Source: a virus. Taken from it: a DNA stretch of 23,203 nucleotides. Within the stretch, counting starts at the first letter, position 1. Every line of letters begins with the position of its first letter. The DNA lies in the IMG/VR virus record IMGVR_UViG_3300027976_000231, positions 1 through 23,203 of that record; one strand, 5' to 3'. Positions 5,947 to 20,805 of this stretch are shown piece by piece. The position numbers were made by a program, and so were the translations under genes. Below the pieces are notes generated by a model. The model was not told the DNA's origin, searched no databases, and saw only the letters and a list, made by a program, of their open reading frames with translations.

Positions 5947-6132
5947 GGGGGTTTTGCTTCGCTGTGGATTTGTCAGGTTTCGGGCCGGCTCACCTAGGCA
6001 TCTGGGGCGTTCGCCTCGGTGGGGGCTTCGCCCCCATTCTGCCACGTTTGGGGCGTGAACGCAAGCCCATTCTGCCCCAACCTTCAACCAATGGTTGAGG
6101 GTTTGATCCGTTCGGCGGTCATCGCCACCCCC

Positions 6133-6184
6133 ACCCCCCCGCCCATATATATGTACCCACCCCCCCGCCCATATATATGTACCC
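6133..6184. repeat. Two perfect tandem copies of a 26-bp unit
   Basis: Units at 6133-6158 and 6159-6184 are identical. Each begins with A and seven C's, then GCCC, then ATATATATGTACCC. The AT-rich core between C/G blocks resembles iterated protein-binding sites or a DNA-unwinding element. Read leftwards, each unit contains TACATATATATGG, which could also serve as a -10 region for the genes to the left. Confidence 0.85.
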
Positions 6185-6187
6185 GCG

Positions 6188-6204
6188 CACACGCGTAAAG
6201 TTCC
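6188..6204. repeat. 17-bp box, copy 1
   Basis: CACACGCGTAAAGTTCC, identical to 6225-6241 and 37 bp from it. Read leftwards it contains GGAACTTTACGCGTGTG. It is a candidate operator or promoter element adjoining the 26-bp tandem units. Confidence 0.75.
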
Positions 6205-6224
6205 GGAATGATTATGTAGTCACA

Positions 6225-6241
6225 CACACGCGTAAAGTTCC
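6225..6241. repeat. 17-bp box, copy 2
   Basis: Second exact copy of CACACGCGTAAAGTTCC. Between the two boxes, read leftwards, is CATAAT (6211-6216), a possible -10 element for leftward transcription of the coiled-coil gene. Confidence 0.75.
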
Positions 6242-6242
6242 A

Positions 6243-6290
6243 GAAAAGGAAAACCGGCTGGCGAGGAAACCAATAAACCTGCCAGCCGGT
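6243..6290 (-). terminator. Intrinsic terminator of the 118-residue gene
   Basis: ACCGGCTGGC (6253-6262) pairs perfectly with GCCAGCCGGT (6281-6290), with AGG/CCT extending the stem inward. Read leftwards the stem is followed by TTTTCCTTTT. It begins 12 bases after the stop of the 6302-6658 gene, and so isolates it from the coiled-coil/terminase unit. Confidence 0.85.
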
Positions 6291-6301: not shown

Positions 6302-6658
6302 CTAGGCTATGATTGCCTGCGCTAATTGAGTATAGCCTTTTCTGACCCCAAGTGCAACCTGCACGATTTCAAGCGCCTCAGAGGCGTTGGTGGCTTCTGA
6401 GATGACGTCCCACGCGAACCAGCTGTAGGTCTCATAAAGACCGCTTGCCATGAGCACGAGAATGTCTGTGCTGTTGTTGTCATCGGGTTGTGGCATTCCT
6501 GCTTCAACCCATTCGGTCACTAGGTCCGTGTAGTAAATCGGTAGTGCCGAGTCGATCGATTCTGCTACGGCTTGTTCGTAGTCATCTTGACCGTGCTGTA
6601 GACCTTCGAGGATTCCCTCCAGGAGGTCTGTCTCCTGCTTGTAACTGAGTTCACTCAT
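6302..6658 (-). CDS. Unknown acidic protein, monocistronic early gene
   Basis: 118 residues, acidic (MSELSYKQETDLLEGILEGL at the start) and mostly helical, ending ALGVRKGYTQLAQAIIA. No domain recognised. It has its own transcription unit: a TTGACA/TACAGT promoter upstream, a very strong ribosome site (AAGGAGGGG, 6 bases from the ATG at 6658) and a terminator right after the stop. It faces away from the rightward early operon across an AT-rich control region, a place where phages often keep regulators, but nothing in the sequence shows DNA binding. Confidence 0.82.
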   Translation of the reverse strand: MSELSYKQETDLLEGILEGLQHGQDDYEQAVAESIDSALPIYYTDLVTEWVEAGMPQPDDNNSTDILVLMASGLYETYSWFAWDVISEATNASEALEIVQVALGVRKGYTQLAQAIIA

Positions 6659-6685
6659 TGTGACCCCTCCTTGTTTGATGCTCTT

Positions 6686-12525: not shown

Positions 12526-12862
12526 TAAAGCTCTACAGAAAGACATAGATCGTGGGTCCAGCAACTTCCCCAGCCTGAACTATCTCAAGCTGACCAAGCG
12601 TCAGCAGATAGCGATGGCACCACTAGAAGTAGCTTTGGACGCCAGGGTTCCGAACTGTCAGAACAAGGCAAGCGAGTTTGTCGATTACGCTGACGAGGAC
12701 ACACCCTCGGCCGAAGATGCCTACATCATGTGTGGAGGTTGCCCAATGCTGATAGAGTGTGCTCGGTTTGCCAATGCCTATAAACCGCCAGTCGGAATAT
12801 GGGGAGGGCAAGTATGGATAGATGGAAAGGTGGTAGATAATGGTCGCAACAACAACAGCTAA
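12503..12862 (+). CDS. WhiB-like iron-sulfur transcription regulator
   Basis: 119 residues. The four cluster-binding cysteines are Cys52, Cys77, Cys80 and Cys86 (NCQNK, CGGCPMLIEC), followed by GIWGG at 98-102, the turn that contacts the housekeeping sigma factor. Wbl proteins bind a 4Fe-4S cluster and act with sigma region 4; they are confined to actinobacteria and their phages, where phage copies can repress host whiB genes. The C-terminus after GIWGG is short and lacks a clear basic AT-hook. It overlaps the helicase gene by 23 bases. Confidence 0.88.
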   Translation: MSWEEKNDKALQKDIDRGSSNFPSLNYLKLTKRQQIAMAPLEVALDARVPNCQNKASEFVDYADEDTPSAEDAYIMCGGCPMLIECARFANAYKPPVGIWGGQVWIDGKVVDNGRNNNS

Positions 12863-13532
12863 GGAGGCTAAGGTGACTGTTCCAAAAATATATTACGCAA
12901 TCGCTAATATTCAAGCGGGCGTAGGAAACATTCCGAAGAATGGAGTGGGTCCAACTTCGCAGGGTTCTTACAAGTATGTAAAGAACGATGACATTCTGGA
13001 TTCGATCAGCAAGCTCATGATTGAAAACAAGGTCATCACTCGGCCCAACATCAAGAGGCACGAACTTGTGACTCGGGAGATTGGTGCCAATCGCTTCGTA
13101 GCGATGACGGTAGTGGAGCTTGAGGTTACTTACATCAGCCTTGAAGATGCTTCTGAGTTCGTCACCACGGTTATTGCCGAGGGTGCCGACAACGGCGATA
13201 AGGGTGGTCGCAAGGCAGTAACGCAGGCGCAGAAGATTGCCAACCTGCTGACCTTCAATATCGCTACTGGTGAGCCAGACCCCGACGGCATGGAGGTGTC
13301 AGCCGTTTCTTCGGCTACAACTCCGGTCCAGAAGAGAATCGCAACGGCTACGGCTGGTGGCTCGACCGCTTTGTATAACGAAATCAAAGCGTTCCTCGGT
13401 GCCAACAGTCTCGCTGGTGCAGTTGCCAACGGACTCGGCAATCGGATTTCGGGTGGCGATGCCAACTGGATGAAGGACGAGAAGATACTTGCTGAGGTGT
13501 TGAATGCACTCAAAAATAACGAAGTCGAATAA
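12840..13532 (+). CDS. ERF-family single-strand annealing protein
   Basis: 230 residues. The pattern YYAIANIQAGVG, then SYKYVKNDDILDSISKLMIEN, and later GDKGGRKAVTQAQKIANLLTF, is diagnostic of ERF recombinases, which anneal complementary single strands during recombination and genome circularisation. It is followed by a RecB-like nuclease and SSB, the usual partners. Two starts are possible: ATG 12840 (AAGGTGG upstream, overlapping whiB) or GTG 12873, which has a near-perfect AAGGAGG five bases before it and would remove 11 residues. Ribosome-site strength favours 12873; length and codon favour 12840. Confidence 0.88.
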   Translation: MVATTTAKEAKVTVPKIYYAIANIQAGVGNIPKNGVGPTSQGSYKYVKNDDILDSISKLMIENKVITRPNIKRHELVTREIGANRFVAMTVVELEVTYISLEDASEFVTTVIAEGADNGDKGGRKAVTQAQKIANLLTFNIATGEPDPDGMEVSAVSSATTPVQKRIATATAGGSTALYNEIKAFLGANSLAGAVANGLGNRISGGDANWMKDEKILAEVLNALKNNEVE

Positions 13533-13719
13533 GTACCAACTCGACTGGTCTAAGTTGCCCGAGGTTTACCAAGACAATATGGGTTACTGGTGGGCCGGCG
13601 AATGGTCTTTTGAGCTAGAAGCTGAAGATGACCTTGAGTTATGTGAGCAGGCAATCTACTCACACTTGGCATGGTATTTGTTCGTGAAGGAGAATAAGAA
13701 TGACACAGCCAAAGCTTAG
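13504..13719 (+). CDS. Hypothetical acidic protein, 71 residues
   Basis: ATG 13504 with GAGGTG upstream, overlapping the ERF gene by 29 bases and the nuclease gene by 20 bases. It is aromatic and acidic (DNMGYWWAGEWSFELEAEDD), then helical. No family recognised. Its place between annealing protein and nuclease hints at a recombination accessory role, without direct evidence. Confidence 0.68.
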   Translation: MHSKITKSNKYQLDWSKLPEVYQDNMGYWWAGEWSFELEAEDDLELCEQAIYSHLAWYLFVKENKNDTAKA

Positions 13720-14551
13720 GGTACGCTCCTCGGGGCATGGTGGCTCCGGGTACAAACACCCCACAACGGGGAGGGTTGTACCCGGTGTAACCACTGTGCT
13801 AAAGAAGCTTGATAAGCCTGGTGTTTTGCAATGGGCTGTAGACAACACTTCCGCGTATGCGGTGGCGAATGTCGATGCCCTGCTGAATCGGACAGAGGAG
13901 CAGGGCTGGGGGTTTTTGCGATGGTACTGGAAGCGTGACCCTATTGCGGGTGACGACCAGGATATTCGGAACTACTCAGCAGGCGTTTTGAGCAATGCGG
14001 CCGAACTGGGTACGCTCATGCACGACTGGGTTGCGGCCGAGCATGATAACCTGCCCTATCCCGATGTGAGCCTAGCCCCAGCGCATTTCTGGGAGATGGT
14101 TGCACAATGGGATGCGTGGAAGATGGGGCACGAGGTCAAGCCAATCTTAACTGAAACAACTTTCTGGTCACACACTTACGGTTACGCTGGAACGGCTGAC
14201 GGTTTGTGGGAGGTCGATGGTGTTAGTATGCTGATCGATGTAAAAACTTCCAGGAACGTTTGGGATGAGCACTTCATGCAGTTATCTGCGTTAGGTGCGT
14301 GCGACACAATGCTTATCGAATCTAATAAGGGTTGGGTTGAGAGCGAAATTCCAGGTTTCAGCAAGTATGCTTTACTTCACATCAGACCATCTGATACCAC
14401 CAAGAACGGGGAGCCAATGGATGCGTTCTGCCGTTTAGAGTTAGTGGACATGGAAGAAATTCCATTACACTTCGAAGCCTTCTTGGGACTGCTTGCAGTC
14501 TCAGAAGCGCAAAACAAGGTGCGAGAGCACAGAAAAGGAGGAAGGTCATGA
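13700..14551 (+). CDS. RecB/Cas4-like PD-(D/E)XK exonuclease
   Basis: 283 residues. The nuclease core is visible in order: GTLMH with His108, Glu152 in ILTETTFW, GTADGLW with Asp167, the catalytic LIDVKTS with Asp180 and Lys182, and Gln194 in HFMQLSALGA. This is the RecB-type arrangement used by phage exonucleases that resect DNA ends for the annealing protein. The order ERF, exonuclease, SSB is a standard phage recombination cassette. The ribosome site AAGGAG is 7 bases before ATG 13700. No iron-sulfur cysteines are seen, so it is not a full Cas4. Confidence 0.88.
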   Translation: MTQPKLRVRSSGHGGSGYKHPTTGRVVPGVTTVLKKLDKPGVLQWAVDNTSAYAVANVDALLNRTEEQGWGFLRWYWKRDPIAGDDQDIRNYSAGVLSNAAELGTLMHDWVAAEHDNLPYPDVSLAPAHFWEMVAQWDAWKMGHEVKPILTETTFWSHTYGYAGTADGLWEVDGVSMLIDVKTSRNVWDEHFMQLSALGACDTMLIESNKGWVESEIPGFSKYALLHIRPSDTTKNGEPMDAFCRLELVDMEEIPLHFEAFLGLLAVSEAQNKVREHRKGGRS

Positions 14552-14925: not shown

Positions 14926-14997
14926 TGACCACTAGCTCAATGGCAGAGCAGGGAGCTGTTAACTCCAAGGTTCCAGGTTCGAATCCTGGGTGGTCAG
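14926..14997 (+). tRNA. tRNA-Asn (anticodon GTT)
   Basis: 72 bases fold as a cloverleaf: acceptor TGACCAC/GTGGTCA, D stem GCTC/GAGC, anticodon loop CTGTTAA with GTT, T stem CCAGG/CCTGG with loop TTCGAAT, discriminator G. CCA is not encoded. The anticodon stem has one mismatch at its outer pair (G against A); all other stems are perfect. It lies inside the rightward operon between SSB and the second whiB, whose ribosome site begins just after it, so it is probably cut from the polycistronic RNA. Confidence 0.93.
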
Positions 14998-15011
14998 CGG
15001 AAAGGGGAAGC

Positions 15012-15305
15012 GTGACATATAAATCAGAACAGCTTTACAGGGAGCTAACAGAAAGAATCAGGGATAACAAGGGCGCTCCTTGTGAGATAGCTCCAGACAT
15101 GTTTTTCCTTGACAAGGACGACAAGATGGGTCGAGAGAAAATGCGGGTCGCAAAAGAAGTTTGCGGTTCGTGCCCAATGAGGCTACTCTGTTTGGAGTAT
15201 GCTTTGGAAGCAAACGAGCAAGATGGCATCTGGGGTGGTCTCACCCGAAACGAACGCAACGCTCTCAATAGGAAAAGGATTCTGACAAGTGCAAGACTTT
15301 ATTGA
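15012..15305 (+). CDS. Second WhiB-like iron-sulfur regulator
   Basis: 97 residues from GTG 15012, with AAGGGGAAG 5-6 bases upstream; the longer frame begins inside the tRNA and is rejected. Cluster cysteines are Cys24, Cys51, Cys54 and Cys60 (CGSCPMRLLC), followed by GIWGG at 72-76 and a basic C-terminus (LTRNERNALNRKRILTSARL), the more classical Wbl layout. It probably binds a 4Fe-4S cluster and sigma region 4, modulating host or phage promoters. It is clearly divergent from the Wbl at 12503, so the pair is not a recent duplication. Confidence 0.92.
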   Translation: MTYKSEQLYRELTERIRDNKGAPCEIAPDMFFLDKDDKMGREKMRVAKEVCGSCPMRLLCLEYALEANEQDGIWGGLTRNERNALNRKRILTSARLY

Positions 15306-17685: not shown

Positions 17686-18465
17686 ATGAAGAAAGCGTTA
17701 CGGCTTCTCGAAGATAAAACGTTCTGCGTCATCACTGGCGCTGGACTAAGTACCGACTCGGGTATTCCCGATTATCGTGGTGAGGGTTCAGCACCCCAAA
17801 AACCGCTGGACTTCGAGCCATTTATTGAGAGTGCCGAGTATCGTAAAGAGTTTTGGATTGACGGGTACAAGGACTGGTGCGACTTTTCACCAGCCCAGCC
17901 CAATGATGCACATTTGGCGATCGCTTTGCTTGATCAGATCGGGTTTGTGAACGGTGTTATTACGCAAAACGTAGACGGCCTTCACTATAAAGCCGGTTCC
18001 GAAGTTGTTGCCGAGTTGCACGGAAATATGTACACAACATCGTGCCTGCGCTGTGGCTTCACGGTTTCAACAGAAGAGTTTGTTGACTTACTTGAGTTGG
18101 GTAACCCCAGCTTGCTCACAAATAATGTGGATACCGAGAACTTTTGGGTGCCTAACTGTTCTGCGTGCGCTGGTCCGATGAAGCCAGACGTGACCTTCTT
18201 TGGAGAATTGTTGCCATTGGGTGCGTTTGAGCTTGCTGGAGAAATAGCAAAAGATGCCGATGTGATTGTTGTTGCTGGCACCTCGCTAAATGTTTTCACT
18301 CCGATGACATTTATTCAAACCGCAAAGTCAATGGGCAAGCCTATTATTGTTATCAATCGTGGCAAGACAATGGTGGATAAGATGGCAAACTTAAAGATTC
18401 ACGCAAGTGTGTCTGATGTGTTCCCCGAGTTGTGTAACCAATTACCCATGCCGGTGTATATATAA
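17686..18465 (+). CDS. Sir2-family NAD-dependent protein deacylase (sirtuin)
   Basis: 259 residues, full length. NAD-binding GAGLS (18-22) and SGIPDYR (25-31), TQNVDGLH (93-100), catalytic His112 in ELHG, structural zinc site Cys120/Cys123 and Cys158/Cys161, PDVTFFGE (167-174), GTS (198-200) and NRG (224-226) are all present. Sirtuins remove acyl groups from lysine while consuming NAD, or in some cases transfer ADP-ribose. In a phage it might reprogram host enzymes, deacylate a modified phage or host protein, or act on NAD-based defence; no choice is possible from sequence. It follows the replication module and precedes the modification island. No sign of decay. Confidence 0.94.
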   Translation: MKKALRLLEDKTFCVITGAGLSTDSGIPDYRGEGSAPQKPLDFEPFIESAEYRKEFWIDGYKDWCDFSPAQPNDAHLAIALLDQIGFVNGVITQNVDGLHYKAGSEVVAELHGNMYTTSCLRCGFTVSTEEFVDLLELGNPSLLTNNVDTENFWVPNCSACAGPMKPDVTFFGELLPLGAFELAGEIAKDADVIVVAGTSLNVFTPMTFIQTAKSMGKPIIVINRGKTMVDKMANLKIHASVSDVFPELCNQLPMPVYI

Positions 18466-18472: not shown

Positions 18473-18796
18473 ATGGCTGATTACAAGGTACCTGCTGGCG
18501 CGATTGCAGCAGCTAAAAGGGCAATTAAATGGATTGGTGACGGGAAAGCTGGTAAAGGCTTTACGTCTGTGGGGCGCGGTAGGGCGCAACAACTTGCGTC
18601 TGGCGGTACGGTTGGTCGGGAGACGGTTGTTAAGATGCGTGCGTTCTTTGCGCGGCACTCGAAGGCAAGCAAGGGTGCCGAGGGCTTTCGGGCTAACCAG
18701 GATGGATACCCAAGTCCCGGTCGGGTCGCCTGGGACGCCTGGGGCGGAGACGCCGGGGAATCGTGGGTAAACGGATTGAGCCTAGACAATGACTAG
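18473..18796 (+). CDS. Conserved phage protein with RHxxxxxxGF...PSPGRVAWDAWGGDAG signature, unknown function
   Basis: 107 residues from ATG 18473; the upstream extension would overlap the sirtuin and lacks any ribosome site. It starts MADYKVPAGAIAAAKRAIKW, is basic in the N-terminal half, has a helix (RETVVKMRAFFARHSK) and ends with GYPSPGRVAWDAWGGDAGESW. I recognise this last pattern from many phage genomes, both as a stand-alone protein and as part of head-gene proteins, but know of no function. The stop overlaps the next ORF (ATGACTAG). Confidence 0.8.
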   Translation: MADYKVPAGAIAAAKRAIKWIGDGKAGKGFTSVGRGRAQQLASGGTVGRETVVKMRAFFARHSKASKGAEGFRANQDGYPSPGRVAWDAWGGDAGESWVNGLSLDND

Positions 18797-18830
18797 AGAA
18801 GAATGGCTAGACAAAGGATTCTACAAAGAA

Positions 18831-18852
18831 GGGGACACAATGAGTGAGCAAA
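18831..18852 (+). repeat. 22-bp direct repeat, left copy
   Basis: Identical to 19917-19938. Contains GGGGACACAATGAGTGAGC, that is, a ribosome site, start codon and codons for MSEQ. It marks the left edge of the Mom-containing segment. Confidence 0.85.
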
Positions 18853-18862
18853 GTGTATATGG

Positions 18863-18908
18863 CGGTGGTGTGATGGAGCCTGCAATTGTAATCGGTGGGG
18901 CGCGTGTG
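18863..18908 (+). repeat. 46-bp imperfect direct repeat, left copy
   Basis: CGGTGGTGTGATG, 18 variable bases, GGTGGGGCGCGTGTG. The same blocks with the same spacing occur at 19855-19900, in the same frame; the variable part encodes conservative changes (EPAIVI against LPVVVV). Confidence 0.82.
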
Positions 18909-18972
18909 TTTCATGGTGATTGCCGTGAAATTTTGCGGGGGGATATAAAGCCCTGCACGAGGCTAAAGTAGC

Positions 18973-19641
18973 ATGGCGCTTGAAGGCTACGAGGTACACG
19001 CGATCAGCGCTAAAGAAGCGACTTATGTTGTGGTGAAGAATCATTATTTGCACAGGCGTGGCCCGGCATCGTATTGTTACGGGTTGTTTGATGCGCAAGG
19101 GTCACTGGTGGGTGTAATTACTTATGGGACACCGGCTAGTCCTTCACTGTGCAAAGGTGTTGCTGGCCCTGATGAGAAGGATTATGTGTTGGAGCTGACC
19201 CGGTTGTGGATTGCAGACATTACGCCTAAGAACGCGGAGTCTTTTCTTATCGGTAACAGCTTGAAACTGCTCCCGCCAGAAAAGAACATTATTGTCTCGT
19301 TTGCGGAGATACGGGCTGGGCATGTGGGCACTGTCTATCAAGCGACGAACTGGCTATACACCGGGCTGTCTGATCGCCATGTTGAGTGGCAGGTCGATGG
19401 GGTGGAGAGCAGTAAACACGGTAGGCATTTGTTTGATGAGTTTGGTGGGATTGAAGGGGCAAAGATTGCGCTGGGGGAGCGTCTGGTGCGTACTGAGCGC
19501 CCCAGGAAACATCGTTACATTATTTTGAGAGGGGACAAGAGGCGTAGGCGTGAGTTGCTTGGCAAGTTGAGGTACCAGGTTCAGGCTTACCCGCAAGCAA
19601 CTGATGAAATTCCGAAAGATTCTACTAAGGGGAAGTCATGA
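18973..19641 (+). CDS. Mom-like DNA adenine modification protein
   Basis: 222 residues. The segments VVKNHYLHRRGPASYCYGLFD (19-39), ITYGTPAS (49-56), VLELTRLWI (72-80), PKNAESFLIG (85-94), FAEIRAGHVGTVYQATNWLY (110-129), SSKHGRHLFDEFGG (146-159) and RPRKHRYIIL (176-185) match phage Mom-family proteins. Mu Mom, a GNAT-related enzyme, converts adenine in phage DNA to a methylcarbamoyl form and so blocks many restriction enzymes. Here it is enclosed by methyltransferase remnants and direct repeats. The start ATG 18973 has only a weak GAGG about 12 bases upstream; expression may depend on the TATAAT at 18461. A Com-like translational activator is not evident. The reading frame is intact. Confidence 0.87.
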   Translation: MALEGYEVHAISAKEATYVVVKNHYLHRRGPASYCYGLFDAQGSLVGVITYGTPASPSLCKGVAGPDEKDYVLELTRLWIADITPKNAESFLIGNSLKLLPPEKNIIVSFAEIRAGHVGTVYQATNWLYTGLSDRHVEWQVDGVESSKHGRHLFDEFGGIEGAKIALGERLVRTERPRKHRYIILRGDKRRRRELLGKLRYQVQAYPQATDEIPKDSTKGKS

Positions 19642-19787
19642 TTGATTATGCGTTGGAGTATGGGATTGATGTTGAGCGTTTGCGGTTGGAGCATCCTGTC
19701 CATCCTCGGCAGATAAGGTTACGCCGTAAGGATGAGTTGAAGGCTTGCGGTAATGGGGTTGTCCCTCAGCAGGTTGCGTTGGGCTAA
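19638..19787 (+). pseudogene. C-terminal fragment of a C5-cytosine methyltransferase
   Basis: 49 residues, overlapping the Mom stop as ATGA. The end, LRRKDELKACGNGVVPQQVALG, corresponds to the last conserved motif of C5 DNA methyltransferases (motif X, GN-V-P-Q). The catalytic Pro-Cys loop and SAM site are absent. It could be a remnant left by replacement of a methyltransferase gene by mom, or, less likely, a small retained protein. Confidence 0.55.
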
Positions 19788-19807
19788 CGAGCAGGAGGGG
19801 GAAACGG

Positions 19808-19852
19808 ATGAGCGGTTATTCTGACAATTTGTGGGTGTTGAAATGGGTATAG
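19808..19852 (+). other. 14-codon ORF with a strong ribosome site
   Basis: ATG 19808 follows AGGAGGGGGAAACGG and encodes MSGYSDNLWVLKWV before TAG. The ribosome site is far better than needed for such a peptide, so this looks like the beheaded start of a lost gene rather than a functional product. Confidence 0.35.
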
Positions 19853-19933
19853 AACGGTGGTGTGATGTTGCCGGTGGTTGTGGTGGGTGGGGCGCGTGTG
19901 CAAGAACCGATGACGGGGGGACACAATGAGTGA
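19853..19933 (+). pseudogene. Second methyltransferase N-terminal remnant
   Basis: The frame after the TAG at 19850-19852 reads NGGVMLPVVVVGGARVQEP, parallel to GGGVMEPAIVIGGARVFHG in the left remnant, then diverges just before the GDC motif and stops at 19933. An ATG at 19865 could start it. It is a shorter, diverged copy of the same gene beginning. Confidence 0.5.
19855..19900 (+). repeat. 46-bp imperfect direct repeat, right copy
   Basis: Partner of 18863-18908, offset by 992 bp. It lies inside the 22-bp repeat pair, but its order relative to the adjacent 22-bp copy is reversed compared with the left side. Confidence 0.82.
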
Positions 19934-19938
19934 GCAAA
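19917..19938 (+). repeat. 22-bp direct repeat, right copy
   Basis: Exact partner of 18831-18852. Here it supplies the ribosome site and first codons of the intact gene at 19926. Confidence 0.85.
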
Positions 19939-20270
19939 CTATCCAATTACCACTACCAATCTATCCAGCCAAGCCAACGGGTGCGCAGCTGGAGATGTTC
20001 AAGCAGGCCAAGGCTATGATCAAGACAGACATCCTTGTCCAGCTGGTGCGAGCAGTAAACGGCTCTCCCGGTAGAGTAATCGCCCTACGGGAGCACCCAG
20101 AGTTTCTTTGCGATTACGCTTTTGTAAAAGAGCCCTCGGAAAGTTCCATTCAGGCCGCAATGCGGTGGGCGCTTGGTGACCACGAGGATGCTCGCGCTGT
20201 TACAATAGTTTCAACACTAGAAAAAATATTTAAGGGTAAGGTGAGGGAAGTTGCCGTTTCAAAGAATTAG
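19926..20270 (+). CDS. Hypothetical protein, 114 residues
   Basis: Starts MSEQTIQLPLPIYPAKPTGAQ within the 22-bp repeat. The middle is helical and basic (LEMFKQAKAMIKTDILVQLV) and followed by CDYAFVKEPSESSIQAAMRWAL, which could form a small helix-turn-helix. No family recognised. It overlaps the next gene by 20 bases. Confidence 0.75.
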   Translation: MSEQTIQLPLPIYPAKPTGAQLEMFKQAKAMIKTDILVQLVRAVNGSPGRVIALREHPEFLCDYAFVKEPSESSIQAAMRWALGDHEDARAVTIVSTLEKIFKGKVREVAVSKN

Positions 20271-20805
20271 TAGTTCAACTCCAGTAAAGCATCCAGTTCT
20301 GGGACCATTTGATAGTGAACTGGACATTTTGCGTCGCAAAAGGTTTGAGGAACAGGAGCGCAAACGCGCACCAAGAATCCAGGTAGACCAGGTAATTACG
20401 CTCAACTCTTGGTTGATCGGTGTTCTTATTGCGTTTGTGGCTTCAGCTGTGGTGTCGTTCAATGGCATCACATCAGTGGCTGCGTTTGTGGGACTGTCTA
20501 ATGCGTGGATGGCGTACCTGTTTTTCTTCTTTATAGAGCTCATCTACTTGTTGTTCCTGGTCGCTTACTTGCTTCTGGAGTCGCGTGAAAACGAAAGCTC
20601 CGGTGGCGCTTTGGCGGGAATGATATTCTTCGCAACAATTGCCGTGCTAGCTAACGGTTTCCACACTTTCGACTACTGGGAGTGGGACTTCGCGGAGCCA
20701 CGCGCATGGGCTGGTGTTGTGCTTTCAGTTTCCGCACCAATTGCAATCATATCGGCCAGCAAGCTCGCAAGCCGCGTAATTTTTGCTCGGCCGCTAGTTG
20801 ATTAA
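20251..20805 (+). CDS. Four-span membrane protein, DUF2637-like
   Basis: 184 residues from TTG 20251, with GAGGGAAG directly upstream. A basic cytosolic N-terminus of about 50 residues precedes four hydrophobic segments near 54-72, 84-108, 119-137 and 153-172. The arrangement resembles DUF2637 proteins (SpdB-like) of actinobacterial plasmids and phages, some linked to plasmid spread; the match is from general layout only. Role in the phage unknown. Confidence 0.7.
   Translation: MPFQRISSSTPVKHPVLGPFDSELDILRRKRFEEQERKRAPRIQVDQVITLNSWLIGVLIAFVASAVVSFNGITSVAAFVGLSNAWMAYLFFFFIELIYLLFLVAYLLLESRENESSGGALAGMIFFATIAVLANGFHTFDYWEWDFAEPRAWAGVVLSVSAPIAIISASKLASRVIFARPLVD

Follow-up and report, generated by a model that had tools for sequence, protein, structure and literature searches.

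How does an intact gene for a Mom-family DNA modification enzyme come to stand between direct repeats in a phage genome, with pieces of methyltransferase genes on either side of it? The locus lies in a 23.2-kb linear IMG/VR virus fragment (the window, meaning the whole stretch of DNA that was analysed), which also encodes a terminase, a portal protein, an ERF recombinase, an exonuclease, an SSB, 2 WhiB proteins, a primase, and a Sir2 protein. A sequence-only reading had proposed a place where DNA-modification genes are swapped against one another, leaving their ends behind, and after comparison with related loci we consider it very probable that the island, taken as a whole, is an overwritten DNA-modification slot. 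The closest relatives of the window in the genome collection are 2 contigs of an uncultured Microbacteriaceae bacterium (L028 and L029), so that the host of the phage is probably a member of this family. In a DNA search against named phages the locus found no match and the tRNA alone did; this tRNA-Asn (GTT), at 14926-14998, stands directly 5' of a WhiB gene (about 15012-15305) and overlaps its longest ORF.

Short repeats can mislead assemblers, and the island might on these grounds be taken for an assembly chimera, but a second contig of the same phage (L002, IMGVR 3300032462_000250) carries the same 1.19-kb island at 100% identity, within an alignment that has 1 mismatch in 10,231 bases, unless both contigs derive from the same reads. 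Since the island is free of any difference between the two, we give an artefact of this kind next to no credence. The repeats are equally real, and chance accounts for neither of them. The exact 22-bp repeat at 18831 and 19917 finds no match in 100 dinucleotide shuffles with up to 3 mismatches allowed, and the inner repeat, which had been put at 46 bp (18863/19855), turned out to be longer, with 59 bp at 76%. Both 22-bp copies hold, as the earlier reading had it, a Shine-Dalgarno-like GGGG and the first codons of gene 19926 (Table 1).

Table 1. The island, its neighbours, and the candidate recombination genes, in window coordinates
Feature	Position	Strand	Match or remark
ERF-type single-strand annealing recombinase, candidate agent	12840..13532	+	PF04404, E = 1e-12
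Phage exonuclease, candidate ERF partner	13700..14551	+	phrog_298, E = 5e-33
Left neighbour, small gene of phrog_2859	18473..18796	+	E = 2e-34; stop overlaps ATG (ATGACTAG), likewise in relatives
22-bp direct repeat, copy 1	18831..18852	+	ribosome-binding site and ATG AGT GAG CAA
59-bp imperfect repeat, copy A	18850..18908	+	76% to 19842-19900
N6/N4 DNA methyltransferase, N-terminal fragment (MEPAIVIGGARVFHGDCREILR)	18870..18941	+	L203 2252-2323, 82% DNA identity
mom, Mom-family DNA modification gene, intact	18973..19641	+	PF25680, phrog_1384
mom end and N-terminus of small phage gene (MIDYALEYGIDVE...)	19602..19711	+	L211 6274-6370
C5 cytosine methyltransferase, C-terminal fragment, ~17 codons (RKDELKACGNGVVPQQ)	19725..19773	+	L203 2166-2214
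N6/N4 methyltransferase, C-terminal tail (RLRWANEQEGETDERLF, then stop)	19769..19824	+	out of frame with preceding ORF
Second small phage gene, truncated start (MSGYSDNLW...)	19808..19850	+	aligned with L201 gene
59-bp imperfect repeat, copy B, including second methyltransferase N-terminus (VMLPVVVVGGARV)	19842..19900	+	
22-bp direct repeat, copy 2, where translation of downstream gene 19926 begins	19917..19938	+	
Right neighbour, gene of unknown function, hybrid; crossover about 20030-20090	19926..20270	+	

The mom product, of 222 aa, matches the Pfam Mom profile far above its curated cut-off and practically from end to end (PF25680, E = 1.2e-41, 143.1 bits against 27.1, profile positions 2-202 of 202) and phrog_1384 with E = 1.7e-50, which confirms that an intact Mom-like gene lies within the repeats. 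Many invariant columns are common to the window's Mom and three other Moms in an alignment, and in a tree of 74 sequences it is the sister of the Mom of L044 with support of 100/90. All 12 of the related viral contigs outside the window's own phage lack mom. Mom-family enzymes are described to transfer an acyl group onto the N6 of adenine (PMC7824862), and the Mom of phage Mu to shield phage DNA against restriction (PMC6483171). The window's gene resembles Mu mom in full-length sequence and in being a DNA-modification gene of a tailed phage, whereas it differs in its setting, an actinophage and the midst of methyltransferase debris; moreover, no Com gene was recognised beside it, and no zinc-finger protein was noticed on inspection of the unit. 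The Microbacterium phages Lupine and Lifes also carry mom, but in different neighbourhoods, and a 45-aa gene after the Lifes mom, considered as a counterpart of the 19638 ORF, was rejected as unrelated.

To trace the fragments around mom, the island was compared with every locus retrieved and the matches were read, and in each of five cases none of 200 shuffles matched as well as the shard did. Upstream, the N-terminal fragment corresponds to the start of a methyltransferase gene in L203, and by tblastn it is 70% identical over 27 aa to the methylase AUV61455 of Pontimonas phage phiPsal1. It ends in GDCREIL, and a second piece, in copy B (88-90% to L201 3175-3215 and L203 2252-2290), ends before GDC, both as had been seen from the sequence. 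Downstream, the end of mom and the adjoining start of a small gene are 88% identical in DNA to L211 over 97 columns, where the ORF reads RDSTKGEVMIDYAREYGIDVE and the matching stretch precedes a whole small gene. The 49-bp C5 fragment is 92% identical in DNA to the C-terminus of an ORF in L203 that matches phrog_1008 (E = 7e-54) and has an overlapping neighbour matching PF00145 (E = 3e-36); the C5 gene of L203 is split across two overlapping frames and stands directly 5' of the N6/N4 methyltransferase. The counterpart in L201 of the second truncated small gene begins MSVYSNNLWAEEMGI.

The ORF at 19638-19787 had been described as a C5 C-terminal piece, which holds for 19725-19773 and fails for the ORF as a whole, a fusion of the small-gene N-terminus (to about 19711), some 17 C5 codons, and a stop read in the wrong frame within the tail of the N6/N4 methyltransferase. 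This tail (19769-19824) had been missed; the methyltransferases of L126 and L201 end ...EQEGETDERLF and a stop at the homologous place, and by eye it shares with the C5 piece a 5-bp overlap, GCAGG, at their junction. Compared with a complete phage enzyme of the PF01555 family such as phiPsal1 AUV61455, the window retains about 24 N-terminal and 15-17 C-terminal codons but lacks the catalytic domain between them, with no PF01555 match anywhere in it. PF00145 likewise has no match there, the 17-codon C-terminal fragment being all that represents a C5 enzyme. The shards are only 82-92% identical to their whole relatives, so the actual donors have not been found; no source was found for the pieces 18797-18830 and 18942-18972, and the piece 19901-19916 has a counterpart in L126 only. 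The string GDIKPCTRLK, considered as a remnant of an HPTVKP motif, was dropped as too short.

If the small ORFs were instead real genes or leader peptides acting with mom, they might serve, for example, in its translational control, which is what Com exerts on the mom of Mu. The ATG-TGA overlap between mom and the 19638 ORF and the good ribosome-binding sites are what one would expect of such genes, but every one of the ORFs corresponds to part of a longer gene in other loci, one runs to a stop in the wrong frame of the methyltransferase tail, another has lost 1 nt compared with L126 and is thereby shifted, and in no relative do they occur as units, all of which makes a coding role very unlikely. 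The ORFs at 18789-18971, 19638-19787, and 19853-19933 are gene ends, as had been proposed, and the contrary outcome, the same small ORFs intact with mom in all relatives, was not found.

The genes on either side place this debris in a slot, between the primase gene and gene 19926, that is used differently from phage to phage. The primase is common to 13 viral contigs, of which one is the window's own phage, and scans with the primase alignment added only the two Microbacteriaceae genome contigs. Ten related loci (L005, L006, L009-L012, L015, L016, L028, and L029) have no insert: the homologue of gene 19926 begins within about 20 bp of the end of the phrog_2859 gene, and in most cases the stop of the one overlaps the start of the other. 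Elsewhere the slot is filled by a complete N6/N4 methyltransferase of 410 aa and a 119-aa ORF (L014), by a Sir2 gene and small genes (L013), or by other small genes (L007 and L008). The flanking genes are thus conserved and the contents differ among relatives, and the swapped cargo that the sequence-only reading envisaged can be nothing, Sir2 with a small gene, a complete methyltransferase, or Mom amid debris. The window's own Sir2-family gene (17686-18465; PF02146, 3e-39) also belongs to the variable cargo: L005, L028, and L013 have it beside the slot, and the other relatives lack it.

On what stood in the slot before mom, the decisive relative is L126, a contig of the metagenome that also yielded L002. 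Its first bases already fall within an N6/N4 methyltransferase (PF01555) whose undamaged C-terminus reads ...GRLRWAIEQEGETDERLF, and it continues with the truncated small-gene start, copy B, a form of the 22-bp start that has one mismatch, and gene 19926. The order in the window is the same, but the methyltransferase is reduced to RLRWANEQEGETDERLF. Since L126 belongs to the window's group on its right side and has a methyltransferase in this position, such a gene has occupied the slot in this group. In sliding comparisons the window matches L126 at 93-100% between 19790 and about 20000 and at 55-76% farther on, while against L005 the values are 55-70% up to about 20080 and mostly 66-95% from there. 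Because identity to L126 falls where identity to L005 rises, gene 19926 is a hybrid, and on this profile a tract of at least 0.25 kb, which takes in the methyltransferase tail and the beginning of gene 19926, is one exchanged with an L126-like phage. L126 begins inside the methyltransferase, so that an ancestor with the left 22-bp copy and a whole methyltransferase has not been seen, and when viral contigs were scanned for methyltransferases close to that of L126, none of them had the 5' end of the gene in the slot.

The same scan brought up a second phage group, which includes phage phiPsal1 of Pontimonas salivibrio and has the gene order HNH, replication initiator, cargo, Zn/HNH, SSB, and RusA. 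As cargo L043 and L044 carry mom, whereas L201, L202, L203, L205, L206, L209, and L211 carry a methyltransferase. The replication initiators of L043 and L202 are 52% identical over 247 aa, and directly after this shared gene L043 has mom and L202 a methyltransferase, so mom and methyltransferase alternate in the slot of this group as well. It is here that the closest whole relatives of the window's mom, and of its small-gene and C5 fragments, are found. If the mosaic had been assembled in a second-group phage or an unseen intermediate and imported as a single block, mom would have displaced no methyltransferase in the window's phage. Every traced shard has a whole counterpart in the second group, and the number of steps is not countable, both of which suit a single import; but L126 has the methyltransferase, the small-gene start, copy B, and gene 19926 in order, and we regard this history as unlikely, though not negligible.

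The direct repeats raise the further question of whether mom arrived in a discrete mobile element that left a 22-bp target-site duplication. The unit is flanked by exact repeats, and excision in silico between the 22-bp copies, which removes one copy with the unit (1086 bp), leaves an open reading frame, MTREEWLDKGFYKEGDTMSEQTIQLPLPIYP..., with the same overlap between its start and the upstream stop that relatives show. On the other hand, the unit is a patchwork with unique ends and contains no recombinase gene, whether for a transposase or an integrase, nor one for a homing nuclease, its 22 bp are confined to the window's phage, and its right half is present in L126 without mom. Since copy B and the right-hand 22 bp both exist in L126, 3' of the methyltransferase, neither was made by insertion of mom, and a mobile element is highly improbable.

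Nor is there support for the 22-bp sequence as a recurring flank of the slot, which is one part of the earlier reading: in 2.9 million viral contigs the exact sequence (first 21 bases searched) occurs only in the window's phage, twice, and beyond this phage L126 alone has a copy, with one mismatch. Since no other phage among the viral contigs searched has the exact sequence, the repeat is not a general seam; its best interpretation is the point where translation of gene 19926 starts, a sequence that also stands before the methyltransferase remnant. We think it unlikely that GGGGACACAATGAGTGAG marks a recurring seam of near-identical 20-30 bp gene starts at which ERF swaps modification genes, with mom and methyltransferase alleles coexisting in a population. 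A third start of this kind, AAGGAGGGGTCACAATGAGTGAACTC, precedes an unrelated gene on the minus strand at 6644-6672 and is 83% similar over 29 nt, so translation starts may look alike without exchange. The contig L122 (1-3259; metagenome 3300027983) agrees with the window at 99.9% identity from position 19945 onward and starts 7 bp past the 22-bp repeat, which may represent variation at the junction.

The overwriting of the slot can be pictured as follows. A whole N6/N4 methyltransferase would once have stood between the primase gene and gene 19926, and its interior would have been replaced by the intact mom together with the small-gene and C5 methyltransferase fragments, through exchanges at short or imperfect homologies. 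The agents were probably the phage's own ERF recombinase, exonuclease, and SSB, whose genes lie 4-7 kb upstream of the slot. From its sequence we predict that Mom in the window is an active enzyme and assumed the protective role, in that it would acylate adenine in the phage DNA and so replace the shield against restriction formerly given by the methyltransferase, while the shards would be dead sequence. A link between Red-type systems and mosaicism of diverged phage sequences has been drawn by Martinsohn et al. (2008, PMC2327257), who name Erf as a further family of this type. The window shows the same patches of >90% identity ending abruptly in diverged flanks, with an ERF gene nearby, but its cargo would be one protective modification exchanged for another, and fossils of successive occupants are kept.

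Phage mosaicism is an ordinary, well-known process, and the record of it here is unusually legible. A literature search, with most subscription journals outside its scope, found no paper describing mom replacing a methyltransferase. At this one locus, with relatives from before and after, methylation and Mom acylation (both predicted) would have been swapped between phages apparently from related actinobacterial hosts, and restriction pressure in a wild phage population becomes testable through counts of modification alleles at a fixed site.

Some further observations concern other parts of the window and of the loci compared with it. Between divergent gene blocks, at 6130-6245, a 26-bp C-rich unit occurs twice without a mismatch, followed by a 33-bp unit that occurs twice at 85%. 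The DUF2637-like membrane protein at 20251-20805 has relatives in about 80 viral contigs, and in two of these (L134 and L184) mom is about 4.5 kb away. L003 contains a tandem pair of different mom genes (141-1444), and in L112 (2998-5580) mom is clustered with a short C5-methylase-like gene and an N6/N4 methyltransferase of the family that left its shards in the window.
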